DNA of 64,000 nt from positions 21,005,027-21,069,026 of the forward strand of contig OY759221.1 in assembly GCA_963662175.1 (NCBI GenBank), written 5' to 3'. Position numbers and translations under genes: made by a program. The notes beneath the pieces are model-generated. The model was not told the origin of the DNA. It saw only the letters and a list, made by a program, of their open reading frames with translations, and made no database searches. Each line of letters starts with the position of its first letter. Position 1 is the stretch's first letter. Source of the stretch: Aradus depressus (lineage: Eukaryota > Arthropoda > Insecta > Hemiptera > Aradidae). Positions 8,961 to 63,724 of this stretch are shown one piece after another.

Positions 8961-9551
8961 GGCGACTCCTAACTCACAAAAATTTTTTTTTACAAAAGCT
9001 TATCTATATTTTGGGGTCGTAATTTTACAGCAATATATATCATTGATGATTTATACAGACAGACGACTTGGAGAGAAAAACAGGGACCCTCTAGTTCTAC
9101 GGAACCCTAAAAAATAAAAGTAGATAGAAGTGGAGACTTGCACCGTTCCCAATGCCCTCGACCATACCCTCCCCCACCGACCTCAATCCAGCCTTAACCA
9201 CCTCCCCCACTTCTTGAGATGCCCCAGAGAAGCTCGGAATCAATGTACTTCCCCACATCAAATAAGTTCATTCTCCCTCCAGTGGCATGTACTTCCCCAT
9301 ACCATATCTCTTTAACAAAAAAAAAAAAAACATTTCTTTTGATCCCATAACAATCGATGCATTCAAGTATAATTATATGAATAGATTATTTGCATTTAAT
9401 ACTCCATTGGTGAGTATGGAGGAGGCGTTCCCTCTTGACGCCTGTGGGGTAGTGTTGGTGAATCTGGGGGTGAATGAGGAGACCGCCCCATCAGCAACCT
9501 TCGGATATGGAATATTTTTATGTAGATATATATTTTCATTGTTTTTTTCTA
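8961..9551. other. No gene recognised
   Basis: Holds a fragment with GTACTTCCCCA words (9,247-9,297) that belongs to the dispersed family's end, and a poly-A run at 9,318-9,331. Nothing else could be supported. Confidence 0.5.
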
Positions 9552-10610
9552 AAAGCCTTGATATCTACCCTCTCAGCAAGCAAGACGTCGGCCCTGCTGA
9601 TGAGAGGGAGAACTGACGCCCGCCAAACCCTCTCCTTGAGGATCCGGGAGATGCGCGTTGAATTCCCGGAGACAGTCACCTACCTAGGTGTGACACTGCG
9701 TCCGGGCTTCAGCGCGACTCCCCATGCTGTTGCCATCAAAGAAAGGACAAATGTCACTTTCAACGCTCTGAGCCGTCTAGCTCGCGCAACATGGGACCTC
9801 GATTACTCAGCGTGTAGAACAATCAACACCGGGGTATTCGAGACAGTAGCTCGGTACGCGGCTGCAGGGTGGTGGTATCACCCCACCAAGCAGCAGAGGA
9901 CGAGACTGCTACAGGCCCAAAGAGCCGCCCTCCTAAGGGTTACAAGGTCCTATCTTACTGTCTCCACTGCAGCGCTACAGGTGCTGGCAGGGGCTCCGCC
10001 CATAGAATTGGTCTTGGACGGGGCGGTCGCCTCGTACTTATGTAGACGCAATTTGCCCCTGAGAGCAGTTATAGATAAGCCCTTGCGCCTCACCATGGAG
10101 GGCGAGCTACATGGACAGAACAGACCAGAGCGTTGCATGGACATTGTCCAAGACTGGATAATGAACAGATGTCAACAGCGATGGTCGCGCTCTTCCGATG
10201 TCCGAACGACATTTGCCTATATTCCTGACGTCCGAGTCCGCCTGCGCTCCACTTGGGTACAGCACGATCACTGGACATCTCAGGTACTTTCAGGTCACGG
10301 CAACTTCAACTCCAAACTCTTCTTCTTCAATAGGAAGGATAGCCTGAACTGCATCGAGACAGGCAGAACATGTGGTTCTCGATAGCCCGCTGTACGACAG
10401 GTCTAGGGTGAAGTTGATCCGCGCGACATGATCGTATCTGGGATTGATCCTGCCAGAGTTGAAGACGGAGTCCAACTAACCGGCGTTCAGGTTTGTCACC
10501 TCCTGGCGGGAACAGAAAAAGGACTTTTGACCCTGCGCCGGGGGCGATTGTCGGGCCAGGCCCGAAGTCTACCCCCGGCGACAGCGATGTAGATGCAGCC
10601 CCCATCCAAT
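9552..10610 (+). pseudogene. R1-like LINE relic, RT thumb to C-terminus
   Basis: A long frame runs to a stop at 10,383-10,385. It shows KTSALLMRGRTDARQ, VTYLGVTLRPG, FETVARYAAAGWWYHPTK and LLQAQRAALLRVTRSY. This is the region from RT domain 6-7 into the connector of R1-clade ORF2. After a frameshift near 10,330 the C-terminal block (IETAEHVVLDSPLYD) continues in another frame to about 10,500. A sister relic with the same blocks is at 37,675-38,830 and a third fragment at 3338-3667. The catalytic domains upstream are missing. The ATG at 9474 is not the biological start: homology begins near 9552. Confidence 0.8.
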
Positions 10611-18069: not shown

Positions 18070-19072
18070 AAACGAGTTTTGTAACTAACCGTGATATTCA
18101 AAGCTATTCATAGACGAGAAAGAACGAGTTTTGTAACTAACCGTGATATTCAAAGCTATTTATAGACGAGAAAGAGCGAGTTTTGTAACTAACCGTGATA
18201 TTCAAAGCTATTTATAGACGAGAAAGAGCGAGTTTTGTAACTAACAGGGTATATTCAAAGCTATTTATAGACGAGAACGAACGAGTTTTGTAACTAACAG
18301 GGTATATTCAAAGCTATTTATAGACGAGAACGAGCGAGTTTTGTAACTAACAGGGTATATTCAAAGCTATTTATAGACGAGAAAGAACGAGTTTTGTAAC
18401 TAACCGTGATATTCAAAGCTATTTATAGACGAGAAAGAGCGAGTTTTGTAACTAACAGGGTATATTCAAAGCTATTTATAGACGAGAACGAGCGAGTTTT
18501 GTAACTAACCGTGATATTCAAAGCTATTTATAGACGAGAAAGAGCGAGTTTTGTAACTAACAGGGTATATTCAAAGCTATTTATAGACGAGAACGAACGA
18601 GTTTTGTAACTAACCGTGATATTCAAAGCTATTTATAGACGAGAAAGAGCGAGTTTTGTAATTAACCGTGATATTCAAAGCTATTTATAGACGAGAAAGA
18701 GCGAGTTTTGTAACTAACCGTGATATTCAAAGCTATTCATAGACGAGAAAGAACGAGTTTTGTAACTAACCGTGATATTCAAAGCTATTTATAGACGAGA
18801 AAGAGCGAGTTTTGTAACTAACCGTGACATTCAAAGCTATTTATAGACGAGAAAGAGCGAGTTTTGTAACTAACAGTGATATTCAAAGCTATTTATAGAC
18901 TAGAAAGAGCGAGTTTTGTAACTAACAGTGATATTCAAAGCTATTTATAGACTAGAAAGAACGAGTTTTGTAACTAACCGTGATATTCAAAGCTATTTAT
19001 AGACGAGAAAGAGCGAGTTTTGTAATTAACCGTGATATTCAAAGCTATTTATAGACGAGAAAGAGAGAGTTT
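18070..19072 (+). repeat. 52-bp minisatellite, about 19 units, two variants
   Basis: Units read GAGTTTTGTAACTAACCGTG, then ATATTCAAAGCTATTTATAG and ACGAGAAAGAGC. Two main variants alternate: one with AACCGTGATATTC (52 bp) and one with AACAGGGTATATTC (53 bp), plus AACAGTGAT near units 16-17. The GAGAAAGAGCGAGTTTTG junction resembles the element's subterminal word AAAGAAACAGTTTTGCC, so the array may have grown from a subterminal repeat. Confidence 0.95.
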
Positions 19073-19186
19073 TGCTCCAAACTGATAACACAGATCGAAA
19101 AATGGGGAAAAATAAGATAATAAACCACTACCATCTCAATTTCTCAAAAATACAGAAACAACGACTTTTGGAACTCAGCGCCTCAC

Positions 19187-26282: not shown

Positions 26283-26814
26283 AATTTTATATTGTTTGTT
26301 TTTAAAGTTTGGAAATATCTGAATATCGCCATTGTGAATAAAATTTTGAAAGAAAGATCGTTGGAAAGCTCATGACAATGGCATCGTGTACCCTTTCACC
26401 AAGTGTATTCCTGCAAAAACTACAGTGGGAAGTGGCACCTCATTTTAAAGGTGTTTCAAATAGATTCAGCTTTTGATCATAACATTATTCAAAATGGCTG
26501 CCTATTATAACAAGTGTGCCGCCCCTCCCCCACCACAACACAACCACAATATAATACTGGGCTCAAAAGACTCAATCTTATTACAAAATTATTTACAATT
26601 AGTCCTTCGCCAATTAAAGTTTCCAAGTAATACAGTTTTATTTTCTCATATATATGTAGTATAGGGGCAGTTATGTAATCGGAAGGTCAGCCCTATTCCC
26701 TTAATATAAAAAACATTGTCGTTTTTGACCTTACGATAAATTAACACACTAATAACAATGAGCTATACAAGATTAGCGTGTATCTCTTTTGTAGATTACG
26801 ATATCTAGTTAGTT
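26283..26814. other. No gene recognised
   Basis: Nothing beyond short open frames without domain-like features. Confidence 0.5.
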
Positions 26815-27669
26815 AACTCATTATTTTCACACTCGCGTGGCGAAAATTTTTACACTCAGACGTCCAAATAATCCGTCTAAATTGGAGTTTTCTCTGAAAC
26901 CGGTAGAATGGAGTCCCAAAGAAGAAGCGGTCAAATACTTAGGGGTCCACCTGGACAGGAGGCTGTCTTGGAACTTCCATGTGAAGACAAAGCTGACGGA
27001 AGCACATGCCAGATTGGCTATGCTGTATCCTATCCTCAACAGGAAATCTCATCTACATCAAAAATGTTCCCTCCTTCTTTATACGGCTATTCTAAGACCA
27101 TTACTGACATACGGCAGCGAAGTCTGGGGTGGACTCTCAAAGACGAATGGGAAGCGGATCCAAGCGTTTCAGAATAAAGTATTGAGGATTGCAACGAACG
27201 CTCCATGGTTTGTTAGAAATTCGCAGCTCCATCGTGACCTCAAGTTTCCCACCATTGCTGAATTTATAAAATCCAAATTTCTAAACTATAAAGCCCGCCT
27301 AGCAGACACGAAAGGAGCAGTTGCTTTCAACCTGGGAAGACCTACCGAGCACCCACGACTTAAGCCCAGACTTCTTCAGGACCTCTTCCAAGAAGATACC
27401 TTATAAATTGATATTTCACTTAGTTATTATGGATTAACTAGGGCATTACCATTGATTGATAGAGGACATTTAATTTCATTTTTCCTTCTACAATTGATTA
27501 TACATTCATCTATATTATTTTACAAACGCTCTGACTCAACATGTATTAAGTAAGGGTAAAATTACCCATGTATTATAGTGATTAAGCTTCATGTTAATAA
27601 CACCATGTATAACATGAATTTGTTGATCTGGTGAAATAAAGAATTTACAACAAAACAACTCATTATTTT
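26815..27669 (+). mobile_element. 5'-truncated jockey-like LINE with 13-bp target duplication
   Basis: AACTCATTATTTT occurs at 26,815-26,827 and 27,657-27,669 and brackets a 5'-truncated element. It carries the C-terminal ORF2 piece, a 3' UTR of about 250 bp and a short tail (AATAAAGAATTTACAACAAA) instead of a long poly-A. The structure is that of target-primed reverse transcription. Confidence 0.92.
26828..27406 (+). pseudogene. Jockey-like ORF2 C-terminal fragment
   Basis: An open frame of about 190 codons ends with a stop at 27,404-27,406. It shows VKYLGVHLDRRLSWNFHVK (RT domain 7), LLYTAILRPLLTYGSEVWG, QAFQNKVLRIATNAPWFVRN and PRLKPRLLQDLF. This is the standard C-terminal order of jockey reverse transcriptases. 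There are no internal stops, indicating a fairly recent insertion. The start is not biological: coding begins at the truncation point, so RT catalytic domains and the endonuclease are absent. A related fragment lies at 7943-8188. Confidence 0.9.
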
Positions 27670-30062: not shown

Positions 30063-31320
30063 ACTAACAATACTTTACTTCAAAATAGTCGTCGATAAAT
30101 CACCAGAAATGTACTTCCCCAACGCGAATCCATCAAATACGTTTTTGCTCTCCCTCTAGAACCAATACATTGATTAGGTTGAAAATCAATTGGTCTTTCG
30201 TGTTGAAACATTCGTTAGATAGTTCATATGTAGTTATTAAGATTTTTGTACAACTCCGCCCCTCATCAGGTCGGAAAATATGGAATTCCTGTGAAAACTT
30301 AATATCTTATTTCTGACGATTACATAATTTCCCCTATACTTGGTATATCTGTATTTCTTTAACTTGAAATTGGCAGTATTGTTCGCACTAACTCAAATAG
30401 TGACTGAAAACAACTGTTCCAAGAACTGTGTCCCATTTTATTTTTTGCGGAATTGTCTGTTCCTATTTCTGTTTTTCTTCACCAGATGTCCATTAGTTGC
30501 AGGCTGTTATTCTGTTCCGAACATTTCGTTGTAGTCAGCAGTAATGATTAAAAACTGCGTTGCTGGCTGTCCTGAGTGGTATTATTTATCTGTTGTCAAG
30601 TCGAAACCTGTCTGGTAGCGAGATGGGTTCTCATCCTTTATCACGCTTCCGTTTCCTTCTGCGTATTCAGACTCTTCTGAGCGATAGTCAATAAGATCAT
30701 CGCTCACTTTACTAATATATGAAAAGAGAAACTTTGTATATATGTCGATTGCATACGCTGCCTAAACCGTTGAAGATATATCAAAACTATGGAGAAATTG
30801 TTGATAATAAAAAGTTCTACAAAAAAAATATATATATTTCTGCGCTCAGCGCATGAAGGACTCTACACTCGAAAGAAAAGAAAAAAAGAAAGGAGATTTT
30901 AATTCATTACAAAATGTCCTGGTAAAGTTGAGGTTTGATTCCCCTGTTTTGGGTTGGTTGCCCTTAGTGAAAGAAGTCAGCACCAGAAACCAAAAATAGC
31001 CCTTCGTGGTGCTTCGTCTGCAAGAAGTTTGCCATGTCAAGAAGGGTGGTTCCTCGACGAATTCGGGTCTTCAGGATGAATCAGGGTGGTTACTGCCAAG
31101 TTTAGTGTTTTCTGCGTAGGTAAGTAGTGGATGTGTAGAGGAGAGGAGAGTGAGGCAAGTGTACCTTCTGTTGATGTGTTGCGGTACTCGCTTGCGTGAG
31201 TTTTTTGGTTGTGTTCTTTCTGTACATATGAATGCCTAATTGTTTCGTGGTCAGGAATGTAGTTTATGTAAGCGTTGTTCACGTGTAGTTTTGTCAATGT
31301 TGTAGTGTCAATTTTTGGAA
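30063..31320. other. Dispersed-family scrap, otherwise nothing recognised
   Basis: GTACTTCCCCAACGCGAATC near 30,110 is the inverted end of the dispersed family; the rest carries no supportable feature. Confidence 0.45.
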
Positions 31321-31374
31321 GAGAGTCAATTTAATAGAAATAAAAAACGTTGTCTTCCCACTGTTTTATTTTAT

Positions 31375-31416
31375 ACCAGAACCGGTTTTCGACGCAACAG
31401 CGTCATCATCAGTGGT
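31375..31416 (-). ncRNA. Hammerhead-ribozyme-like motif (left arm)
   Basis: Exact reverse complement of the motif at 31,478-31,519, with the same pairings on the minus strand. Confidence 0.65.
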
Positions 31417-31477
31417 TCATCCCACCCACACAGCACAGCGGTATGCTTCCAACCGCTGTGCTGTGTGGATGGGATGA

Positions 31478-31519
31478 ACCACTGATGATGACGCTGTTGC
31501 GTCGAAAACCGGTTCTGGT
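31478..31519 (+). ncRNA. Hammerhead-ribozyme-like motif (right arm), best example
   Basis: In order: ACCA, CTGATGA, T, GACGC-tgtt-GCGTC, GAA, AACCGGTT, C, TGGT. Stem I (ACCA/TGGT) and stem II (GACGC/GCGTC) pair perfectly. AACCGGTT is self-complementary, as in small hammerheads proposed to act as dimers through stem III. The only departure from the canonical core is the single T after CTGATGA. Predicted cleavage would follow the C at 31,515. Confidence 0.65.
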
Positions 31520-31610
31520 ATAAAATAAAACAGTGGGAAGACAACGTCTTTTATTTCTATTAGAAATCTCGTCCCACAACATCTTACTATCACATATGAG
31601 AGTCAATTTA

Positions 31611-32255
31611 GGCCTCTGACAACATGAAATTTAATTTTCTACCTGTTAAACCTATGTCTCTTAACCCTTTAACCCTAAACATCTTTAACGTTAAAAGGGT
31701 AACCAAATGACTGTTCTACAAAAAAAAAGTCTGTGACGGCATGTACCTATATATAACAGTCTCCAACAAGAGTTTTTATCTCTAGATATAAATCTGTAGT
31801 TTTGTCTATCAAATAGTATTCTTATAGCCCGGTTCAAACGCGGACCAGGAGATATATATTGGGAGATCTGGCGTCGTGATCCATGCCGACCCAGCACTAA
31901 CCACCGTTGAATCACCCTCAATGTATATCCCCACACCTACTGTTCCACATCGAAAAATTGTAGCAATCTTTGACATCATCCCTATGCATAGACAAAGTAA
32001 GGCAATCTGTGGCCTCACTATATACATAGAGAAAGTCTAGTAATATCTATCCATCAACTTGGCGTAGTCAATCGCCCCTCGAAAAAAAAGCCTTGAGGGC
32101 TCTTAATTGTATTACATCCAGAGAGCCGGAAGTTGTTTTTTCTAGCAGCTATGGTAGCAAGTAACAAACTAACTAGCAAAATGACTGACCGAAACAATTA
32201 TCTCTTTACATGTCAATCAATTCATAGAAAAATTTCTGGATGCATTCAGTGTGCC
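31611..32255. other. No gene recognised
   Basis: Nothing supportable; small inverted words near 31,660-31,700. Confidence 0.45.
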
Positions 32256-49559: not shown

Positions 49560-52500
49560 GTGCGCTTATAATTTTAACGTTTTAGAATTTCATTTCAATA
49601 ATTATAGTGGACCCACAGTAATGTATTTTTCTTCAAATATAATTTGGTGAAAGAGCATAACATTGTACAAACTATCGTAAGAACTACATTGAGGGAAACC
49701 AGTTTAAAGTATTACTTTCTCCATGCAAAAATATAATCCAGAACGTTGAACAGTTAAATCTTCCTTTAAGACCTTTCAAATAAGCAAATAATTACTTTTT
49801 TTTTTTTCCAAAGGTGAAAACCACGATTATTGTTGTATAAGGATGTTCAGCGAATGGGAATTATCCCTGAATTTTATTTGGGGAAAAACGGAATTTTTCT
49901 TTTCCCATATTTTCAGAAATTGCAGAGTTGTGCCCAATGCCCACACATTAATTTGTAGGTCATGTTTGGGTTTATCTTATTTTAATTTAATTTTTGTAAC
50001 AATAATTGTTTTTGTTTGTGACGAGTTAAATACCGGTTGCCATATTGTTCCAGACAACCATTTGTTGCCAGAAGAAAAATACAATTTATTATAATGGGAG
50101 AGTTAGTTATTATGACTCATGCCTGGGCTTATCTACAAGGTCATATCGCCTACTGCCAGAGTGCTCTTTCGTCGCTCTAATGGACATGAGTCCAACTCTA
50201 CTATGGAAGTCCTGAATTTTGTGTACATAGGTTTATTGGGGGTCATTTATGAGTAGCTGACATCATACAGGCTCGGGACCATCGCTTATTGTCCCATTAG
50301 CAATATCCTCTGCCGGGAACCCGCTATCCTGCGCTCAGTAGGCTTGAGGGGGATACGAAGATATCTTAGGTTAAATGAATGAAAGCAGGCATTCGGTCTT
50401 TTTTTTCATTGGGTATTTAAAGAGACGTTTCAAGCCAAAAGCTCTTCATCAGCACTTTATTGTGGCTACTCTTTTTAGTAACGAAAAAACTTAACTGAAT
50501 AAGGAAGAAAGTTTTGGTTAGGCCTAAGAAAACTTCTTTCTTAATCCGTCTGTTTTTTCTTCTATAAATGGAAGTAAGAAAAGGCTGGAGATAAACTATT
50601 GGATTTGAACGTCTTTTTTATTACTAAATGAATACATTTTGGGAGACCAAAATCTTCTTACATCTACAGTAAAATTAAAACTTATTCCGATGATATAAAA
50701 TTAAAATTTATACACTATCTATCGGTGGCTAGGTAAACAACTAATTCGCTTTTTCGTTCTACATTATATTATTATGACGCGATATATTATGATATATTTT
50801 CCTCTGCTTACGTTGCGTGAAATCTAAAAAACGATGTGTCGATACATTCACTACATCGGTAGTTATTGGGATTTTTGAGTTGTCTCCCTCTGATTCCTTC
50901 CCTCCCCTTCGGCTGATTCCGCTGAAAATTGATGAGTGTCGTCCTTATAGGGCTTTGAATTTACATATGAAATTTCATGTCAATACATTCATTACAATAG
51001 CAGTTATTCGAGTTTTTATGATGAGACTTTCCCGATTTGGCTGAAAATAAATGGGTGTCGTTTCATATAAAATTTTGTGTCGATATATTCATTGAGTGAT
51101 TGTTCACACACACACACACACATAGAACTTTGTTTTCCATTTTTGGAATCAGGCGGAAGGAAAACATAAAAATTCCATTGAAAACTCCATCTTGAATTTT
51201 TTACCGAGTAGATAACTCCTATATACTTCGTAAAGCGAAAGCGAAGTAAAAAATAGAATCTCTCTCAATGAGTTGGTGCTCAAATAGCTACCCTCACAAG
51301 TGATTGGGTATCATTGGCAAACTTTTAGGCATTATTTTGTTGCCATTCTTTTCTTGTAAGAGTGAATTGAAACATGTTTGGCATTAATACTTTGAAATAT
51401 GCTTATATTTGTATTTCTTAGTACTCCCTGAAGAACTAAACTCTTTGTCGTTTCAGAAACTATCAAAGATGTGATTAGATATTTGCGTCGGGACGATGAT
51501 TCTCATGAAATCCGGCGGTTTGTTGGCAACGCTAAACTTCTTCAGACAGATTTACTTCCTATTCTTAATTGTCACTCAAAAGACAAAGAATTACTGGATG
51601 TTGTCCTCAGGTAATACCATAATATACTTACAAGGTTGTAATTAAGAATATAATTTTGGGTGTCTTTATAAACCCATATTTTTATATTGATATTTCGGCT
51701 TCAATTAGATTTTAAAAAACAAAGTTTTGGCTTAGTATCAATCTTCTGTAGAGCTCGTATTGAATAAGCTTACATACTTTGTGATATTTAACATTTTCTG
51801 CAGAGGTATTGTGAAACACATAATAAAAAATAAACCCACGTTTAAAAAAAAAGTTGTATATTTCAAACAATATATATAATATATGGGAGTACTTTCGGTA
51901 TTGCTCCCATCTTCAGGCACGACTTAACAAATAAAAAAAATATATTATATCTTTGATGGGCGGGAAAAAGAGTACATTTTTGGCCAAAACAGTATATTTT
52001 GTACGACATATGAAGTCAATCTCCAGAAGTGGTGAGAAGAGGACAAGTCGGTCATGTCTCTGACGTAGTGTAGACCTAATTTTTTGGCAGTTTAAAAAAA
52101 CGTCCAGTGGCAAAAGACATTTTCTTTTCTCCTGAAAAATTGACTTTTTTGACTTGTACTGTTATTGCCTCCCACCAAAGGTATATATCTGTGAAATATA
52201 TAATATTTTTCCTTAATTTACATACCACGAATTTTTTACTTTATCTCAGGAAAAAATGTACTGTTTGACTAAAAGGACTGAAGATAGGGTCAACATTTTA
52301 TTCTTTTGGATGCATGAAACGAAAAGAACAAATCTTATCATGTATCTGAAAGAATAGAATTTTGATCCTCCTGTCGGTCCTTTTAGTTAAATAGTACAGA
52401 TTCTCCAGAAAACAGCATTGGGTAAATTGAATAAAAGGTACACACACTTCTCCTCATACATCAAAATTTGATATAAATTAAAGATGTTATTATTATTATT

Positions 52501-55500
52501 TTTTTTTTATTTCAAACAACAATTAATTCAATTCTATTCTACCAATTGTATAAATATAAATCTCTTCAGTACAAATTGGTATAATTTTTGTTTTTAAAAA
52601 TATAATTGGGTACCGAAGCATCGATCTGGAGATGCGAGTATAGGCTTATACGGAGTACATCCATAATTTTCAGTTATTTTAATTAATATTTTCACTTTTT
52701 ACAGACTTATTGTTAATTTGACGACACCAGCTATAATAGTCTACAATGAAGTGGTGCCTACGGATAAGTTGGAACATAATAATTATTTGCAAATCATTAC
52801 TCATTTGCAACAATACAAGGAAGCTTTTAGCGATCACAAGCCATGGAATGTTTTGTCGGAGTATTTAAGTAAACTTCTTAATAAGGTATCCTTTCTATTT
52901 GAAAAAATAATATGTATATAATAATAGATGGAAAAACTCATTCGTTCTTCTAGAAATTTTATTCAATAGTAATTAAGGAAACGTTTCTACCGAAAAGGTC
53001 ATCTTCAGCCTTTTCTTACCTCTACCCTTATTTATCCCTAGGCCTGAGAAAATACTCAAAAAATATATATAAAAAAAACAAGGTAATTTGAAGAGAAGCT
53101 CGAAAGTTGTGTCATTTGACTGAAATCTGAAAAGGAAACTGGAAGCCCGAATGCGTTTTTTCGTCTTCTTTATTTAAGATGTCTTTATTTTACATGACAA
53201 TTTGTTTTTGAGGCTGTTTTTCCTTTCCTATACCTACGGTATGAGCAAATGATGTAATCGTGCGAAAAACCCAAATCGAATTTTCACAAGATTTGCAGCT
53301 TTGAAGGTCTCCTGAATACTGTTTGACCATTTTCGCGATGATGTTTGAGTGTATGGGATTGAAACATTATGCGCGCTCTAACGCAGCAACGTACCTATGA
53401 ATTTTAATTTTAAAATGGATTAGTGACATTTGCTTAATTTGATCTGAATGGTTTTTGACCAAAATCGGACGAAAAATGAGACAACTTTACTTCGGAGCCT
53501 AGGTACATTTTGCAGGATTTACATTACAAAGGAAAAACAGCCTCAAAAACAAATTGTCATGTAAAATAAAGACATCTTAATGTCTTTATTTTACATGACA
53601 ATTTGTTTTTGAGGCTGTTTTTCCTTTCCTATACCTACGGTATGAGCAAATGATGTAATCGTGCGAAAAACCCAAATCGAATTTTCACAAGATTTGCAGC
53701 TTTGAAGGTCTCCTGAATACTGTTTGACCATTTTCGCGATGATGTTTGAGTGTATGGGATTGAAACATTATGCGCGCTCTAACGCAGCAACGTACCTATG
53801 AATTTTAATTTTAAAATGGATTAGTGACATTTGCTTAATTTGATCTGAATGGTTTTTGACCAAAATCGGACGAAAAATGAGACAACTTTACTTCGGAGCC
53901 TAGGTACATTTTGCAATATACCGCTTATTTATGAACTAATCAAAACGATTTTCAAATAAAAGTCATAGAGACAATTAAAAGGCACATTTTATCTGACAAA
54001 ACAGTTTTTCGCAGATCTTGCGATTTTTGAGATGCATGCCACTGTTCTGATATATCGTATTGAAACCCATTTTGATAGATTTATGCGAAAGAGTTAGCCC
54101 TATCAAAAAAATTGGCTCTTACCAAAATTGTTCCTTTTTAAATTTCCAATCGCTTATGTGTCCTCAAATTTAAAATAAGACCAATAGGAATAATGTTATA
54201 GAGCCCCGAAGAACGTAAACTAAATGTCTGTAAAGAATATATCTAACAAGTAATTTTTCGAAACCCGGCTGAGGCTCTTAATTTATTTTATCTGGGAGGT
54301 AAAATCAATTTAAGTATGCCGTCCTTCGGATGGGACGTTAAGCGATGGTCCCGAGCCTGTACAATTTCAGATACTCGTTAAAGACCCCTAAGTGAATAAA
54401 AATTTAGGGTAGGCAAAATTTAGGACTCCCACAGTAGAGTCGGGCTCATGTTAGTCATAATAATTAACTTACTTGTTGGTAGTTAGTTATTATGACTCAT
54501 GCCCGGGCTTTGACTATGAGGTCATATCGCCTACTACCAGAACGCTTGTTTATTCGTCACTCTGGTGGATATGAGCCCGACTCTACTGTGGGAGTCCTAC
54601 ATTTTTCCTATTTAGGTTTATTCACCTAGGACAGGGATCTTTAACGAGTACCTGACTTCGCACAGGCTCGGGGCATTCTCGCTTAACGTTCCATCCGAAG
54701 GACGACTTACTCAAGATCTTTTTTACTTTCTAGATAAAATAAACTAAGGGCCTCGGCCGGTTATTATTGGTAGTTATTACTGAAATTGATAAAGATGAAA
54801 AACATAAAATATATGTGATGTGGCCATAGATCACTTTCTCTCCACTCTCTCTCTCTTCTCAAAATCATTACTTGGTATAAGAAAGTCCTGTAATGACTAC
54901 ACATATATTTTTATTTTAAAGTATAAAAATGAATAAAATCAGAATTTGTTTAATAAAGATCTGAAAAATTGTATTTATTTTGTTGTATGCTAGGAGGTGG
55001 AAGAACGAGATGAGGATGAGCAGAGAATCATAGAGAGGATCCTGATCTTGATTAGGAACGTACTCCATGTACCGGCCAATATTGACAGTGACTGGAGGCC
55101 AGACAACGATGCCAGTGTTCACGATCAGGTAACAACCACCCTCCGTACCTCTCCAACTCCAGATAATGTTGTTTTGCTGGTAGAAATAAGGGAATCATGT
55201 GCTGTGGAACTCATTGGTTAAAAATTATAGTTTGAAGTCAAAATAAATAAATTAAACAAACTGCTTTTTGAAAAACAATGGCAAAAAGTTTATCCGTACT
55301 TCCGGATTACTCGTAATAAGGGTCCTAAGGGAATTTAGGTAGTCAGGGAATTTTCATTAAGGTTGGATCCCCCCCCTCACCTAGGGCCTTCCCCAGGGCT
55401 CAGGGTGGCGCAGTCTTTGGTAATCTGAATTGTATAATATGACCACCTAGCCAACTTAAATGTCATATACCCAGTAATGCCAGAATTGAATTATTTTGAC

Positions 55501-58500
55501 CATGGTTGGTATAAGAAAGTCCTGTAATGGCCACACATATATTTTTATTTTAAAGTATACTCAGATGAAAAAGTTCTTAATCTTTAATTATTATTATTAT
55601 TTTTTTTTTGTTGAAAGATTGATGTTCTGTTTTTTTAATATTGCATAAATGTAGCGTCATCCCATTGTTTCTCAATCAAAAATATACATTAGATAAACAC
55701 AATTTGCTGCAATAACGAATGTTGAAAGAGTAATATCCTGTTTAAAACGTTATTTAAATGTTATGTATACAAAGCAAACTAGTGGTGGATCAATGAGTGA
55801 GGGAAAAGTGGGAGTGACTTTTCTCCCTCCCCTCCCCTTCCAGGGTAGTAAGGAAAAATAAAAGTGTTATCATTTATATCATCATTAGTTTGTTAGTTAT
55901 TGTAACTCATGCTTGGGCTTTAATAAAAGGTCATATCGCCTACTACCAGAGGGCTCCTTCAGTTTTGGTGGACATGAGCCCGACTTTAATATGAAAGTCC
56001 TAAGTTTTGCCTACTTAGGTTTATTCACATAGAGTATGAGACTTTAACGAGTATCTGACCTCGTACAGCCTCTTTGATATTATTTCATATAGCCCTTATT
56101 TCCTTTATTATATGTATTATGCTATAAACATTTTTATAAATGTACTATTATATTTATTTTTGTATTTTCTTTATTATATCATATAGTCCTTATTTCCTTT
56201 ATTATATCCTTAATTATATGTATTATGCTATAAACATTTTTATAAATGTACTATTATATTTATTTTTGTATTTTCTTTATTATATCATATAGCCCTTATT
56301 TCCTTTATTATATCCTTAATTATATGTATTATGCTAAAAGCATTTTTATAAATGTACTATTATATTTATTTTTGTATTTTCTTTATTATATCATATAGTC
56401 CTTATTTCCTTTATTATATCTTTAATTATATGTATTATGCTATAAATGTTTTTATAAATTTACTATTATATTTATTTTTGTATTTTCTTTATTATATCAT
56501 ATAGCCCTTATTTCCTTTATTATATCCTTAATTATATGTATTATGCTATAAACATTTTTATAAATGTACTATTATATTTATTTTTGTATTTTCTTTATTA
56601 TATCATATAGCCCTTATTTCCTTTATTATATCCTTAATTACATGTATTATGCTGAAAGCATTTTTATAAATGTACTATTATATTTATTTTTGTATTTTCT
56701 TTATTATATCATATAGCCCTTATTTCCTTTATTATATCTTTAATTATATGTATTATGCTATAAATGTTTTTATAAATGTACTATTATATTTATTTTTGTA
56801 TTTTCTTTATTATATCATATAGCCCTTATTTCCTTTATTATATCTTTAATTATATGTATTATGCTATAAATGTTTTTATAAATGTACTATTATATTTATT
56901 TTTGTATTTTCTTTATCTTATTTGTTTATTGACAACTCAAATATTTGTATATTTGCAGTCTTAGGTAATCTGAGAATTGTACCTATATAATATGACAACC
57001 TAGCAAACCGAAACCGGTACTCTATGTACATATATATTTTTGTGGAATTAGACATAATATAAAAGTTAAACAAGCTCTTTGTTTTTACTTTAGTTATAGA
57101 CAAAGATTCACTAAGGGTTTTAGTTTATATACCTGACGATGGTGTAAAGCCGAAACCGTTAGTTCATGTATATATTTTTGTGGAATTAGACATAATATAA
57201 AAGTTAAACAAGCTCTTTGTTTTTACTTTAGTTATAGACAAAGATTCATTAAGGGTTTTAGTTTATATACCTGACGATGGTGTAAAGCCGAAACCGTTAG
57301 TTCATGTATATAATTTTTTGTGTATTAGACAATATTTTAAAAATAGTATATACCTGACGATGGTGTAAAGCCGAAACCGTTAGTTCATGTATATATTTTT
57401 TTGTGTAATAGACAATATTTCAAAAAATTGGTAACGTTGGAATGACGAAAGTGAAAGGTAAATACAGATGTTATAAGTTAAATACATCGTTGTATATCTT
57501 ATAACAGCTTTCCAGGAAATAGGGTCAACCGAGTTTCCTGGGAGTTCGCCATTTGTTTTCTTTATTTTCATACTCTTCCAATCTTAGTTTTGTATTCTGT
57601 TCTTAGAAAAATCTCAAATTGTGCAGATTATTGTGCTCTAATAATTGACAAAGAAAAAAAAAGTCTTCGGTGAATCACTGGTTATGTACTTCCTCAGTGG
57701 TTATTGAGTTTAAGATCGGAGGTTCGAAACCCGGCCGAAGCCCTTCATAATATATAATATTATTTAAATTTTAATGTTATATGTTTAACATAATATGTTA
57801 TATGTTTAACATAATATATTATATTTGTAATGTGATTAAATTTAAGTAACTAAATCCTCTTCCACAACCTGTGTGGAGGGGGATTGTCGGACAATGACTA
57901 GCTAAATTATTGCTTTTCATTTCTACTTTTTTTACGAGCTTGTAAGCAGGAAAATGACATGGTAAGTTAATAACTAGTAGGACTCACTATAATGGTCAAA
58001 TTTTATACAACTACAGGCATTTTATTATTATTATTTTCATGCATACAATTGATGGGGTTTGAATTAAAATGGTCCAAGTGACATTTTTGAAAATTTTTCG
58101 TTGAGTTCATAATCGGGTACAAAAATGATAGTTCTGTTCAGGAAAAAAGTTGTACAAGTGAAATCCTAGCCAGTGCTAAGATCTAGTGGCAAATCACTTA
58201 TTCCATTTTGTTGACATGAACAAGTAACTTAAACATATCAATAGTGACCTTGAAATTAAGATTTTTATTCAATTTTATGGTTTGCTAATAGCAACTTTCA
58301 CCATAAAAGCAGAAGACAAAATATTTCCGGTTTCGATAAATTATAGATTTTCTAAATGAGTTAAGAACTTAATGCACAGTTTCTTCAAATTTTTAAAAAT
58401 GTCAATTAGACCACTTTGATTCTAACCCCAATTAATAACTATTTCAAACACCAGTTTTCACAAGTAAATGGAGTTGAGAGGTTTCTACGTGAAGATGACA

Positions 58501-60473
58501 TTAAATTTTCTTCTTGTGGGAAATCAGGCTCAGAAATTAACATCTTATTTTTAATTTCAGGTTATCTGGGCCCTCCATCAATCGGGAATGCTCGATTTGC
58601 TTTTGTACATTGCAAGTTCAGTGCAGGAATCGCATTTTTATATGCACATATTGGAGGTGAGTCATTATTAAGAGCAAGTACTGAGAATACAGAGTAGTTC
58701 AATCAAGGGGTTAGCAAATTTTTATATTCAACGATTTATTTAAATAAATGTTTTTTTCACATTTATTATGTGATTTTCAATTTTGTCATAAGTACAGAAA
58801 GTTGTTTAAATAAAATTTGTAAATATTCTTGTTTCAGATATTTCAGACGCACAAACAGTATTTTTTTGCGAATTATACACTTAATAATAAGATGCATTCT
58901 GTTCTATGTTAGATTATTTGCCTTCTGGTTCGTGAGCAGCCGCCATCCCTACTTGCTCAGACGGCTGCCCAGAGGAGTAACGAAGAGAAATCTCGGGATG
59001 ATCAAGAACTGTTGAAATTGAGACAAAAGGAGCTTGAACTTCGACAGAACAAAACAAGAAAATATCTTGGAGCCAGGTAATTCATAGTAACCTGATGTTA
59101 TTTGTTAAATGGAGAATCAACGTAAGGAGTGCTACAAACAATACATAGATACTTTATGTAGTAGTAAGATATAGAGACTTAGATGTTTGTGGGTGGATGA
59201 GTGCAGTGTGGCATGTGTCAGTTTGAAGTAAATGTGTTGCGCCCCAGATCAGTTTGATAAATAAATAAAACAAACTTCTTTTTAAAAATATTTTCTATAC
59301 CGCCAAAAACATTTATAAATAAAGTACCGGTTTAGGCATTACAACATCGTCAGATTTAGTTATAAATCGGTATATATACAGTGAAACCTGGTTAAGTGGG
59401 ACCTGGATTAATGAGAAACCTCTATTATTGAGAGTTGCAATGAGGTCCCGGTTCTTTTTCATTAAATTACCTCTGTTAATGGGACTTTTTGAACCTGGTT
59501 AAATGAGATTTGAATTCTAAGACTTTTACCTAAGACTAAGATGTTTACCTCTATAATTGAGACTCTGTAGCTCAATTACCTGTATAAATGAGACAAATTA
59601 TTCAGGTATTAACACGTTTTGACATGTTTGTTTACATACATTTCGCGTCGTCTTTCGCGCATGCTTTGTTTGCCAGTACTATCTCAGGTTTTGACCTAAA
59701 AACAAGGGAATAAAAGTGTACAAAATGTCCAAACGTAAATATAAAACTGCCACTTCTTTTAATTGGAAAATCTAAGAGCCCAAGATGCTTCAAGGGTATT
59801 AAAACGTTGCCTGTTAATTATCAAAACAATAAAAAGGCCTGGATGACTTCTGAATTATTTGCAGATTGGTTAAAAAAAGTGAACGCCGATATGAGGGCCC
59901 AAAAACGAAAAATCATTATGTTTGTCGACAACTGCACAGCTCACAACAATATGCCCAAATTAGACTATGTTACATTATTGTACTTACCCGCCAATACCAC
60001 AAGTAAATTGCAACCAAGTTTTACACAAGTATTTCGAAATGTCAAATATTGATAATTCTAATATTTTTGATCAAATTTATTCTATCGAGAAACAGGTTTC
60101 AGCAACTAGCAATCAAGTACAAACAAACATAACCGATTACTTTAAGTCATAAACTTTACGTATTATTTAAGTCATAAACTTTACGTATTGTTTTTTTTTT
60201 CGACGCAATACATTATGTATGTACATTCATACCTACATTAAATTCATAACACCAAAAATACGCATTTTTATTAACATTTCCACCTCTAAAAATGGAATAA
60301 CGACACATTTCGACCTCTGTAAGTGGGGGCCTCTGTAAATGAGACAACTATAATTTTAAACCTGCTTAATTGGAAAACTGGAATATTGGAAACCCTCAAT
60401 AATTGGTACATATGTGTTGGTCCCTTGAGATTCCAATTAACCAGGTTTCACTGTATATATGATGTATAAATCG

Positions 60474-62195: not shown

Positions 62196-63724
62196 AATAC
62201 ATAAACTGTTCTGTTGGCTTGATATTTAAATACTATCAGTTATTTCACAGGTTGCAAAATAAAAATGTAGTCTCAACTCCCACAGATTTAAATACTTTTG
62301 CTACCCGGCTTTCGAGGTTGCCCTCTTCATCAGGCAGTCTGATAAAAAACAAAACAATTCAAAATACATAGTTTAAAATGTTTTTTTTAATGGTTCAATA
62401 TCCGGCCGAGGCCCTTTGTTTATTTTATTTGTGAGGTAAAATAAACTTAAGCACGCCGTCCTTCGGATGTTAAGCGATGGTCCCGAGCCTGTACGATGTC
62501 AGGTATTTTTTTTTTTCACAGGATGTCAAATATAAGATAGTCTGACCTCTCACAGATTTTTATTGGTAGTAATAGCTAGCCGGCTTTCGAGGTTTCCCTC
62601 ATCATCAGGCAGTCTGATAAAAAATTAAAAATTTTGAATAGAAGTAAATAATATAATAAAAATAATTAAATAACAATCTAAAACATTAACTATTTAAAAT
62701 TTCATGGATGGGGGCAGACGAGTTATCCCTGTCCACCATCAGTTGTGACTCAGATGGTGGACAGGGATAACTCGTCTGTCCCCATCCATGAAATTTTAAA
62801 TTGTTAATGTTTTAGATTGTTATTTATTTATTTTTATTATATTATTTACTTCTATTCAAAATTTTTAATTTTTTATCAGACTGCCTGATGATGAGGGAAA
62901 CCTCGAAAGCCGGCTAGCTATTACTACCAATAAAAATCTGTGAGAGGTCAGACTATCTTATATTTGACATCCTTGAAATAATCACTTCTCACTACATCAG
63001 CCATCTTCATATTAATGTCAGGTACTCGTTAAAGACCCCTGCCCTAGGTGAATAAAAATTCAGTGTAGGCAAAATTTAGGACTCCCATTGTACAGTCGGG
63101 CTCATGTCCACCAGAGTGAAGAGCGCTCTGGTAGTAGGCGATATGACCTCGTAGTTAAAGCCCGGGCATGAGTCATGGTAACTAACTATAACAAATGTTA
63201 ACATAAAGACAAATAAATTATAGAATCTAATGATGCGAGAGCTTCCCGAAACTTCTTCAATCGCTAGGTTTTAAAACCCAAAAAATAAATGGGAGAAATG
63301 TAACTGTGATGAATATATTATATATAAATTCAGAATCTCAATATACTTTCCAAAAATTATTATTTTCTATATTTTATTAAAATTGTTTGTCATTAGGATT
63401 ACTTAGTTCGTGGAAAAACTCAAGATAACGATGAATCATATTATTTCAATGCTATGAAATTTTTCATGGAGTTTAATCGTAAATATAATTTTCAAGTCAA
63501 ATTTGTCAGGTTAGTAAATTATTGAAATTAAGTAGATATTAAAATTTTAAATTGTTATATTATGATATGTACTGTTTTTGTTTAATTTCAGTGAAACAGT
63601 GTCTGTGGAAACATTTCATTTTGTTCAAAAGTACTTGGAAACGTGGCATGAAATGATGATTACTGATAAAAAGAAGATTCCTCTTTGGTCAACAAGGATG
63701 CACATTGCACTTAAAGCTTATAAA
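49463..63724 (+). CDS. timeout: Timeout (tim2), TIMELESS orthologue, 5' part, ten exons
   Basis: Ten exons join in one frame: 49463-49559, 51457-51610, 52705-52885, 54994-55128, 58561-58656, 58913-59076, 60977-61094, 61776-61922, 63397-63509 and 63592-63724. They have GT...AG borders and give 446 residues without a stop. The protein matches the N-terminal TIMELESS domain of vertebrate TIMELESS and insect TIMEOUT: ELAATCNAIGYYDG, IRYLRRDDDSHEIR, LIVNLTTPAI, RIIERILILIRNVLHVPAN, HSNFGGTFVVKNMKSI and RRSALSVRLILKQF. The family acts with TIPIN in the replication-fork protection complex and chromosome cohesion, in the nucleus. TIMEOUT, not clock TIMELESS, is favoured by closeness to the vertebrate protein. 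The C-terminal part lies beyond the window. Introns of 80 to over 3,400 bp are full of mobile elements. Confidence 0.95.
50101..50390 (-). mobile_element. SINE subfamily with alternative head, in timeout intron 1
   Basis: The inverted copy of the element split at 25,686-26,282: TTGTCCCATTAGCAATATCC, CTGCCGGGAACCCGC and CCTCAAGCC-type head words are shared, while the body matches the main SINE. Confidence 0.8.
50418..50455 (-). ncRNA. Weak hammerhead-like motif
   Basis: Minus strand reads CTGATGA, an imperfect hairpin, then GAAACGTC. The core words are right and ACGT is palindromic, but stems I and II pair poorly, so it is probably a decayed copy. Confidence 0.3.
50810..51100 (-). repeat. Dispersed family block, inverted
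   Basis: Contains ATGTGTCGATACATTCACTA and GTGTCGTCCTTATAGGGCTT, the inverse of the plus-strand units, followed by a CA microsatellite at 51,105-51,122. Confidence 0.65.
51457..51610 (+). CDS. timeout: timeout exon 2
   Basis: Acceptor TTTCAG, donor GTAATA. Encodes ETIKDVIRYLRRDDDSHEIR and LLQTDLLPILNCHS; ends two bases into an arginine codon. Confidence 0.93.
51884..51919 (-). ncRNA. Hammerhead-like motif in timeout intron 2
   Basis: Minus strand: TGC, CTGAAGA, T, GGgagcaataCC, GAA, AGTACT, C, CCA. Nearly identical to 16,867-16,901 except that stem I TGG has become TGC, weakening it. Followed on the minus strand by the shared ATATATTATAT tail. Confidence 0.5.
52705..52885 (+). CDS. timeout: timeout exon 3
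   Basis: Acceptor TTTTTACAG, donor GTATCC. Encodes LIVNLTTPAIIVYNEVVPTD, then a helical stretch ending YLSKLLNK; phase 0 end. Confidence 0.93.
52975..53012 (-). ncRNA. Hammerhead-like motif in timeout intron 3
   Basis: Minus strand: AAGG, CTGAAGA, TG, ACC-ttttc-GGT, A, GAA, ACGT, TT, CCTT. Stem I can pair (AAGG/CCTT). Extra bases flank stem II and precede the stem I return, so it is a relaxed version of the motif. Confidence 0.4.
53179..53915 (+). repeat. 336-bp direct duplication with inverted spacer
   Basis: 53,179-53,514 and 53,580-53,915 appear identical. The 65-bp spacer contains an inverted copy of the unit's first 40 or so bases (AAACAGCCTCAAAAACAAAT then TGTCATGTAAAATAAAGACA). A diverged relative lies at 23,355-23,560. 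Confidence 0.9.
54257..54466 (+). mobile_element. SINE fragment, plus strand, in timeout intron 3
   Basis: Starts CGAAACCCGGCTGAGGCTC and runs to GAGTCGGGCTCATGTTAGTC; the ACCAGAG...GCCCGGGC part is deleted. Confidence 0.85.
54477..54764 (-). mobile_element. SINE, minus strand, head-to-head with the previous one
   Basis: Starts TTATTATGACTCATGCCCGG, ends GGGCCTCGGCCGG. Box A is missing. Only about 10 bases separate it from the plus-strand copy, tail to tail. Confidence 0.85.
54865..54925 (+). repeat. Dispersed-family start word
   Basis: TTGGTATAAGAAAGTCCTGT followed by AATGACTACACATATATTTT. The same sequence recurs at 55,503-55,555, on each side of exon 4. Confidence 0.6.
54994..55128 (+). 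CDS. timeout: timeout exon 4
   Basis: Acceptor ATGCTAG, donor GTAACA. Encodes EERDEDEQRIIERILILIRN and an acidic loop ending DASVHDQ. Confidence 0.93.
55500..55560 (+). repeat. Dispersed-family start word, second copy
   Basis: TTGGTATAAGAAAGTCCTGT and ACACATATATTTTTATTTTA, matching 54,868-54,920. Confidence 0.6.
55898..56075 (-). mobile_element. SINE fragment next to the 107-bp satellite
   Basis: AACTCATGCTTGGGCTTTAA to ATCTGACCTCGTACAGCCTC; head missing. It abuts the satellite directly. Confidence 0.8.
56084..56917 (+). repeat. 107-bp AT-rich satellite, about eight units
   Basis: Unit: CATATAGCCCTTATTTCC, TTTATTATATCCTTAATTAT, ATGTATTATGCTATAAACAT and TTTTATAAATGTACTATTAT, then ATTTATTTTTGTATTTTC. 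The first unit is shortened. Units differ by few substitutions (AGCCC/AGTCC, AAACA/AAAGCA/AAATG). It lies in timeout intron 4. Confidence 0.95.
57127..57173 (+). ncRNA. Hammerhead-like motif, array copy 1
   Basis: TATATAC, CTGACGA (57,133-57,139), T, GGT-gtaaa-GCC, GAA, ACCGTTAGTTCAT, GTATATA. Stem I (TATATAC/GTATATA) is the strongest of the set but its return is offset by two bases; stem III is small or absent. Confidence 0.5.
57265..57311 (+). ncRNA. Hammerhead-like motif, array copy 2
   Basis: CTGACGA at 57,271-57,277 and GAAA at 57,290-57,293; identical to copy 1 in the motif. Confidence 0.5.
57348..57396 (+). ncRNA. Hammerhead-like motif, array copy 3
   Basis: CTGACGA at 57,354-57,360 and GAAA at 57,373-57,376. 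The unit before it is shortened to about 83 bp, but the motif is intact. Confidence 0.5.
57715..57752 (+). mobile_element. SINE head scrap
   Basis: GATCGGAGGTTCGAAACCCG and GCCGAAGCCC are the box-B end of the SINE head; the body is absent. Confidence 0.7.
58561..58656 (+). CDS. timeout: timeout exon 5
   Basis: Acceptor TTTAATTTCAG, donor GTGAGT. 32 codons: VIWALHQSGMLDLLLYIASS, then VQESHFYMHILE. The 93-codon frame starting at 58,416 is a read-through in another frame and not the gene. Confidence 0.93.
58913..59076 (+). CDS. timeout: timeout exon 6
   Basis: Acceptor TATGTTAG, donor GTAATT. Encodes IICLLVREQPPSLLAQTAAQ and a charged stretch (LLKLRQKELELRQNKTRKYL) ending in a split arginine codon. 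Confidence 0.93.
59310..59355 (-). ncRNA. Degenerate hammerhead-like motif in timeout intron 6
   Basis: Minus strand reads CTGACGATGTTGTAATGCC then TAAACCGGTACT. The GAAA box is changed to TAAA, so it should be inactive; ACCGGT remains palindromic. Confidence 0.35.
59379..60453 (+). mobile_element. Pogo/Tigger element relic, 1.07 kb, in timeout intron 6
   Basis: CAGTGAAACCTGGTTAAGTG at the left end is mirrored by TTAACCAGGTTTCACTG at the right end. TA flanks both sides. Inside are further inverted words (CTGTAAATGAGACAA, TCTGTTAATGGGAC). The element is internally deleted and keeps part of a transposase. Confidence 0.92.
59800..60153 (+). pseudogene. Pogo/Tigger transposase DDE fragment
   Basis: LPVNYQNNKKAWMTSELFAD (frame from 59,807), then KRKIIMFVDNCTAHN and VTLLYLPANTTSKLQP. 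The D of VDNC is the second catalytic aspartate of the DDE domain in Tigger/CENP-B-like transposases; the N-terminal DNA-binding part and the first D are missing. After SKLQP the frame departs from the expected reading. A further piece near 60,000-60,150 (VFRNVKY, then an unrelated frame to a stop at 60,150) looks like the decayed C-terminus. Confidence 0.85.
60977..61094 (+). CDS. timeout: timeout exon 7
   Basis: Acceptor GTTTTTAAG, donor GTATCA. Encodes HSNFGGTFVVKNMKSISDKE and LIYHKPLHAANTIS, the best-conserved block of the family. Confidence 0.93.
61776..61922 (+). CDS. timeout: timeout exon 8
   Basis: Acceptor TTTTTTACAG, donor GTATTT. Encodes KKVKIPKNRQSLKCENVERR, then SALSVRLILKQFCVEILNAA and YNPLMRYIK. 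Confidence 0.93.
62140..62195. repeat. TA microsatellite in intron 8
   Basis: Long alternating TA run; similar shorter runs occur at 4,621-4,657 and 60,474-60,501. Confidence 0.85.
62302..62335 (-). ncRNA. Diverged hammerhead-like motif
   Basis: Minus strand: TGC, CTGAAGA, GGGCAACCTC, GAA, AGCCGGGT. It resembles the motif at 62,883 but lacks two bases before stem II, and the stem III palindrome is imperfect. A related flank (CAGATTTAAATAC) lies beside it. Confidence 0.4.
62576..62611 (-). ncRNA. Hammerhead-like motif (left arm)
   Basis: Mirror of 62,883-62,918. Confidence 0.55.
62883..62918 (+). ncRNA. Hammerhead-like motif (right arm)
   Basis: GC, CTGATGA, T, GAGG-gaaa-CCTC, GAA, AGCCGGCT, A, GC. 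Stem II is perfect, AGCCGGCT is an eight-base palindrome, stem I only two pairs. Confidence 0.55.
63397..63509 (+). CDS. timeout: timeout exon 9
   Basis: Acceptor GTCATTAG, donor GTTAGT. Encodes DYLVRGKTQDNDESYYFNAM and KFFMEFNRKYNFQVKFV; last serine codon split. Confidence 0.93.
63592..63724 (+). CDS. timeout: timeout exon 10, last in the window
   Basis: Acceptor TTTAATTTCAG, donor GTACGG. Encodes ETVSVETFHFVQKYLETWHE, MMITDKKKIPLWSTRMHIAL and KAYK. The gene continues past the window. Confidence 0.92.

Follow-up and report, generated by a model that had tools for sequence, protein, structure and literature searches.

How Penelope-like elements (PLEs) insert, and why their copies have inverted pseudo-LTRs (pLTRs) with an odd one-sided tail, is explained in different ways in the accessible parts of two published studies: self-priming on an antisense template for a rotifer element (2013, PMC3846280) and priming from two strands in vitro for a lizard element (2024, PMC11167929). 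A locus of the flat bug Aradus depressus raises the same question. In a 64,000-nucleotide stretch of contig OY759221.1, hereafter the window, a palindrome carries two small hammerhead motifs, which an earlier note on this DNA took for a compact element with a ribozyme at both outward-facing ends. We asked whether the palindrome is an element or the product of an insertion, and conclude that it was left behind by an insertion reaction on two strands and is not a two-ribozyme element.

Structure of the insertion

A perfect 13-bp direct repeat, GAGAGTCAATTTA, is found at positions 31321 to 31333 and 31598 to 31610 of the window and constitutes the target duplication, the last two bases of its left copy also matching the adjoining arm. 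Between its copies lie two inverted arms of 111 nt each (31332 to 31442 and 31452 to 31562), which are 98% complementary, are separated by 9 nt, and form a near-perfect palindrome of 231 bp. An AC-rich tail of 35 nt (31563 to 31597, plus strand) is present on the right side only and adjoins the second duplication. Each arm contains a complete small hammerhead motif, ACCA-CTGATGA-T-GACGC-TGTT-GCGTC-GAA-AACCGGTT-C-TGGT, located at 31478 to 31519 on the plus strand and at 31416 to 31375 on the minus strand, both pointing outwards. The earlier description of a 13-bp duplication around a palindrome of about 230 bp with a tail of about 34 bp and one complete motif per arm was therefore accurate.

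Comparison with the 162-nt reference of the repeat family, designated S, revealed that the tail-less arm (31332 to 31442, minus strand) is an antisense cDNA of S positions 16 to 126, begun at an inner start site. The tail-bearing arm (31446 to 31597, plus strand) corresponds to S10 to S161, S162 being a G at 31598 that is common with the duplication. The tail thus lies between the inner (31562) and the outer (31597/31598) start sites. A 3-nt filler (31443 to 31445) joins the two arms, and this junction varies from copy to copy. The ATG at the beginning of stem II (31488 to 31490, plus strand) sits where lizard Poseidon has its start codon, and the frame that it opens ends at a stop within S.

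The hammerhead motif

In the tail-bearing arm, the motif comprises stem I (ACCA/TGGT), the core CTGATGA, an extra T, stem II (GACGC/GCGTC), GAA, the palindromic stem III AACCGGTT and C17. Cleavage would be expected after 31515, which the earlier note had named and which is the correct place for the predicted motif, and between 31379 and 31378 in the tail-less arm. Judged from its sequence, the S motif has all core bases and stems I to III of a type I hammerhead, in the minimal PLE variant. A strict pattern, requiring 4 pairs in stem I, the core, 4 or more pairs in stem II, GAA and a stem III complementary to itself, had two matches in the window, and 200 first-order Markov resamples of the window gave none. 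Two scans of viral contigs for the motif gave no matches, as expected for an animal-type element.

In a scan of the whole window, no Rfam family reached its gathering score and no hammerhead was listed at the insertion. This silence is expected, because the motif has an extra base after CTGANGA and its stem III is a bare palindrome that is not closed. At E≤10, 18 matches were obtained for positions 31001 to 31960, 15 of them to microRNA models; we rejected identity with a microRNA precursor, since such models match a long hairpin. The extra base, which the earlier note had pointed out, also occurs in the hammerheads of two autonomous PLE families of this genome, A and B (see below). The S, A and B hammerheads agree in their core and T linker, and in each of them stem III is complementary to itself (AACCGGTT, AGCCGGCT and ACCGGT, respectively). 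Stem II differs yet pairs in all three (GACGC/GCGTC in S, GAGG/CCTC in A and GGT/GCC, with one G-U, in B), and stem I contributes 4, 2 and 3 pairs. In S, the hammerhead lies at the start-codon position in the PLE manner, with CTGANG-ATG and a palindromic stem III. The start codon of the lizard element is likewise at stem II and preceded by G8, according to the accessible text of PMC11167929; by analogy with that text, the lizard hammerhead would have the same extra base as S. The predicted cut is at +28 from the stem-II ATG in S, and the lizard cut is given as +26 in that text.

Energy calculations gave a dimeric hammerhead fold of -29.7 kcal/mol, against -30.8 kcal/mol for the best dimer structure, and a monomeric one of -4.7 against -11.6 kcal/mol. 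As modelled, two S RNAs thus come close to their best structure in the hammerhead fold, a single RNA falls far short of it, and good closure of stem III takes a pair of RNAs. This agrees with the statement, cited in the accessible retrozyme literature, that PLE hammerheads cleave as dimers.

Conservation of the motif relative to the rest of the element, which had been suggested as a check, was measured among the copies described below. Per-site variant rates were 0.0089 in the motif, 0.0091 on its 3' side and 0.0120 on its 5' side. Variation in the motif is therefore close to that on its 3' side, with approximately one base difference per arm among copies, and the check is indecisive either way: the S family is too young for selection on the motif to be judged from its copies.

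Other hammerhead-related sequences occur in the window. Tandem units at 57031 to 57426 contain three family-B-like motifs (CTGACGATGGTGTAAAGCCGAAACCG) with spacings of 138 and 83 bp. The minus strand holds two remnants of PLE-like hammerheads at 59292 to 59353 and 62310 to 62333, of which one resembles family B and the other family A. On the same strand, CTGANGA...GAAAC motifs similar to hammerheads, but belonging to none of families S, A and B, are found at 50428 to 50452 and 52984 to 53008.

Copies of S and definition of the mobile unit

A search of the 698-Mb assembly (74 contigs) with the 264-bp insert produced 1,549 first-look candidates, and all 40 scored copies matched at least 262 of 264 bases with 92 to 100% identity; neither 1,549 nor 40 is a copy number. 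The search for further copies that the earlier note had called for thus found the arrangement again in every scored match. Since this first query contained the tail, a second query of 95 nt inside one arm, blind to the tail, offered a fairer test of how tails are distributed. It gave 680 candidates, of which 40 were scored, with matches at 39 places; 36 of these were read, namely, 30 new loci plus L010, L011, L014, L015, L018 and L019. The combined set contained 60 loci (L001 to L030 and L065 to L094) representing 58 independent insertions, L011 and L024 having the same centre and duplication as L008 and L023, respectively, and being dropped as duplicates. Fifty-four loci were two-armed (52 independent copies) and six were one-armed (L067, L069, L073, L074, L078 and L079).

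The arms agreed across the 60 loci, and the centres and junctions differed. Among 104 arms, the 5' end fell at S1 to S5 in 52, at S6 to S30 in 47, at S58, S71, S105 or S111 in four, and at approximately S16 to S24 in the tail arm of L094, where an internal deletion removes part of the hammerhead motif. The junctions of the 52 two-armed copies comprised 17 overlaps, 30 fillers (including L094) and 5 blunt joins. Target duplications were 11 to 14 bp long in 46 of the 52 copies and outside that range in five; the remaining two-armed copy, L003, had no detectable duplication. As arms agree and centres differ, the palindrome arises anew at each insertion, from two separately started cDNAs, and the mobile unit is S, a 162-nt non-coding RNA that carries a single hammerhead motif and a single tail.

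These observations bear on the reading of the palindrome itself as the propagating unit, similar to a foldback element or a MITE, with its two outward ribozymes. Although the many near-identical full-length copies and the near-perfect inverted arms would suit such a unit, its centre and arm lengths vary, one-armed copies occur and the duplication length is variable. Furthermore, the end opposite the tail was the inner start site, with no matching terminus, in 52 of 52 copies, and S has neither the matching terminal inverted repeats nor the fixed-length duplication of a foldback or MITE DNA transposon. We consider this explanation extremely improbable. The proposal of a two-ribozyme element did not survive the comparison, since copies differ at their centre and six of 60 loci are one-armed; its other parts, a non-autonomous, non-coding nature (S is 162 nt long and its frame is closed by a stop) and a retroposon-like target duplication, were upheld. 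Elsewhere in the window, a self-comparison showed a sequence of approximately 470 bp (62511 to 62981) to match its own reverse complement at 96% identity, and a 52-bp tandem repeat with about 19 copies occupies positions 18073 to 19074.

The one-armed L067, L078 and L079 bear the tail and have no detectable duplication; the tail-less one-armed L069 has a clean 12-bp duplication. Because six of 60 loci are one-armed, three of them without duplication, the two-strand outcome is usual and not obligatory.

One tail per insertion and two start sites

Exactly one arm bore the tail in all 52 independent two-armed copies of S. The rule held in each of the 24 newly fetched two-armed copies of the tail-blind set (L065 to L094), and in 30 of 30 when the six tail-blind copies already in the first set were included (L011 duplicates L008). 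Half of the copies would break this rule if the arms chose their start site freely and evenly. Inner arm ends were located at S123 to S131 (mode, 126) and outer ends at S159 to S162 (mode, 162, the end of the S reference).

The autonomous PLE families A and B displayed the same pattern. Outward-facing ends of families A and B in L031 to L064 were paired if they had a common flank of at least 9 bp, unpaired ends not being counted. All 11 resulting insertions (9 of family A and 2 of family B, with shared flanks of 12 to 16 bp each) combined one tail with one inner end. Measured from the stem-II ATG, the inner and outer ends were at 75 and 110 to 111 nt in S, and most often at 84 and 122 nt in A and at 88 and 134 nt in B. 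Both arms started from the same site in none of the 52 S copies and none of the 11 paired autonomous insertions. Thus, two-armed copies of S carry, on one of their inverted units, the 30- to 40-nt tail between two reverse transcription start sites that has been described for PLEs. A search of the open-licence literature found no statement of such a one-tail rule, which is not proof of absence; in its strict form, the rule is new here.

Evidence that both arms are copied from RNA

Palindromic junctions, and arms that share variants within a copy, could also arise if a single cDNA folded back and copied its own second arm. Certain junctions, for instance the S5/S15 join of L002, L003, L006 and L010 (3-nt overlap), are readable as hairpins, and a longer tail arm, observed in 27 of 52 copies, is allowed by this mechanism, which is also the published view in that the accessible part of the 2013 rotifer study (PMC3846280) favours self-priming on an antisense template. 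However, the tail-less arm clearly extended further 5', by 6 to 55 nt, in 15 of the 52 copies (L008, L010, L017, L025, L026, L030, L066, L071, L077, L082, L086, L088, L089, L090 and L091), a count that leaves out L094, for its internal deletion, and L020 and L070, where differences of 6 and 3 nt depend on ambiguous junctions; the arms were equal in 7 copies. The tail, for its part, cannot be copied from a tail-less arm. Since in these 15 copies the tail-less arm holds extra 5' sequence and the other arm holds the tail, both of their arms were copied from RNA. In addition, the tail-less arm stopped at the inner start site (S123 to S131) in 52 of 52 copies, and its partner may be truncated far inside the element (S58, S71, S105 and S111), neither of which fits copying of one arm from the other. 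Snap-back synthesis is therefore very unlikely, and the genomic data favour two-strand priming, as in the 2024 lizard study, over the self-priming of the 2013 rotifer study.

The template of these cDNAs was not cut by the ribozyme at the motif. None of the 104 arms had its 5' end within 2 nt of the predicted cut site. The queries made at least one arm per copy span that site, so that the fair sample consists of the partner arms of L065 to L094, none of which ended there. Because the sampled arms do not begin at the cut site, RNA uncut at the motif served as the template.

The same result argues against a metazoan retrozyme, in which ribozyme-cut, circularised RNA would have been inserted by a PLE. 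S resembles the non-LTR retrozymes described in the accessible text of PMC7229834 and PMC7761336 as a small non-coding repeat with a type I hammerhead motif, and retrozymes are proposed there to be moved by PLE enzymes. Those retrozymes, however, consist of direct repeats in tandem, with canonical type I hammerheads, and have circular RNA. S shows neither the tandem arrangement nor the canonical hammerhead, its arms being inverted and its motif of the minimal PLE type, and motif-cut RNA was not the template of its sampled insertions. A retrozyme is thus a highly improbable identification.

Autonomous PLEs and the origin of S

A search of the genome for GIY-YIG domains gave 150 scored matches among 1,852 candidates, and the three PLE frames tested all encoded RVT_1 followed by GIY-YIG. 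Families A and B have hammerheads at their pLTRs with the same ribozyme layout as S, alongside long RVT_1 plus GIY-YIG frames, the assignment to family B being based on a hammerhead that follows the frame. In L051 to L064, PLE frames remain open over up to 859 aa and some form tandem units approximately 2,819 bp apart, which suggests recent PLE activity. The family-A protein had 36 relatives at E≤0.001 among 7,994 scored, mostly proteins with a reverse transcriptase domain and, where organisms were named, from animals; comparison with the PDB yielded no relatives at E≤0.01. In the window itself, open frames that by eye resemble pieces of non-LTR retrotransposon reverse transcriptases lie at 26813 to 27406 and 9474 to 10385.

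S was more similar to the leader of family A (z of 6.8 overall and 5.3 after the hammerhead, relative to mononucleotide shuffles) than to that of family B (4.0 and 2.2). In the PLE loci read, no element was found to combine the S leader with an ORF, and S was matched only in part (L056, L060 and L063). At 162 nt, S lacks the ORF for a telomerase-like reverse transcriptase with C-terminal GIY-YIG that defines an autonomous PLE. As it resembles the A leader and no ORF follows an S leader in those loci, S is best called a non-autonomous PLE-type element, and its helper is probably a family-A-like protein. The connection with Penelope drawn in the earlier note is supported by the inverted units, the tail between start sites, the place of the hammerhead and the PLEs present in the genome. 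Non-autonomous PLEs are known from green algae. No animal PLE was described as non-autonomous in the form of S in the open-licence literature searched, which is not proof of absence.

Proposed insertion mechanism

Given its PLE-type hammerhead motif and PLE reverse transcription start region, S is very probably a non-autonomous PLE-type retroposon that inserts by two-strand priming. Judging by the arm 5' ends, the RNA would be made from about S1. A PLE protein with reverse transcriptase and GIY-YIG domains, encoded elsewhere in the genome, where candidates were seen, would bind this RNA. It would cut both target strands; the duplications and flanks show the cuts to lie mostly 11 to 14 bp apart, at a two-fold symmetric site. 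Reverse transcription would then begin from both 3' ends, using the outer start site on one strand, which gives the tail, and the inner site on the other, an outcome shown by all 52 S copies and all 11 paired autonomous insertions. Each antisense cDNA would be extended towards the 5' end of its RNA template, and the pair would be joined head to head, through short overlaps or fillers as the variable junctions show, to form the palindrome. The hammerhead motif would be carried along, with uncut RNA as the template.

The flanks of 47 insertions showed A at -3 in 35 and at -2 in 30, C or G at +1 in 37, and T at +2 in 28 and at +3 in 32; C at -1 was weak (17). This two-fold symmetric target preference suits a symmetric dimer, and the lizard protein forms a dimer in its published AlphaFold model (PMC11167929, accessible text). 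Five variants between S14 and S122 were common to both arms within a copy; 5,000 random re-pairings gave a mean of 0.40 and never more than 4. Together, the one-tail rule, the symmetric target and the shared rare variants suggest two reverse transcriptases, one per DNA strand, each with its own start site.

Two reverse transcriptases probably act on one RNA. Priming on both strands from two independent RNA molecules is quite conceivable, if on balance doubtful. In its favour, variants are mostly confined to a single arm; a template that has been copied once may be difficult to use a second time, and two bound RNAs are a simple arrangement for a dimer. Against independent molecules, rare variants pair within copies above chance, and in L080 an unusual 5' extension is present on both arms. 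Two RNAs from one source locus would, however, still explain the shared variants and the L080 extension, so that the shared rare variants would place both arms usually on one RNA or on RNAs of one source locus. Both arms of L080 run at least 37 nt upstream of S1 and were templated by a longer RNA, which offers a lead to the source locus.

A fuller model, to which we give even chances, places a symmetric dimer on a single RNA with two start sites about 36 to 46 nt apart. Each protomer would cut one strand and start at its own site, yielding one tail per two-ended insertion. The tail would be the footprint of the second protomer, inverted pseudo-LTRs would be the normal product, and the 162-nt leader would be enough for mobilisation in trans.

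Relation to known systems

LINE-1 twin priming, in which both target strands prime on the element RNA and produce inverted segments, is a minority outcome that starts at poly(A); in S, two-strand priming is the usual outcome and uses fixed paired start sites. The following comparisons refer to the accessible parts of the two PLE studies. The Penelope element of Adineta vaga (PMC3846280) is similar to S in its head-to-head inverted units, short target duplication and junction palindromes, and in a 31-bp tail at one inverted pLTR. It differs in having an ORF, duplications of 8 to 10 bp, against mostly 11 to 14 bp in S, and an optional tail, whereas exactly one arm is tailed in every two-armed S copy read. 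Anolis Poseidon (PAc, PMC11167929) has, like S, a hammerhead at the start codon, two adjacent reverse transcription start sites with a 30- to 40-bp tail between them, and cutting and extension of both strands. Its reverse transcription starts 111 to 118 nt into the ORF, and the outer end of S is 110 to 111 nt from the ATG. For Poseidon in vitro, no start-site difference between the strands is reported, a result that does not itself predict the one-tail rule; in S, two sites are paired, one per insertion end.

S is young, multicopy and only 162 nt long, and its insertions keep both start points, the 5' ends and the duplication, making it a natural assay of PLE insertion. The S data speak against self-priming in more than a quarter of the copies sampled, suggest that each DNA strand has one of the two start sites as its own and give a symmetric target. 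They also bear on the role of PLE hammerheads, in that the sampled insertions used RNA uncut at the motif, and S offers a minimal substrate for a bench test of PLE insertion.
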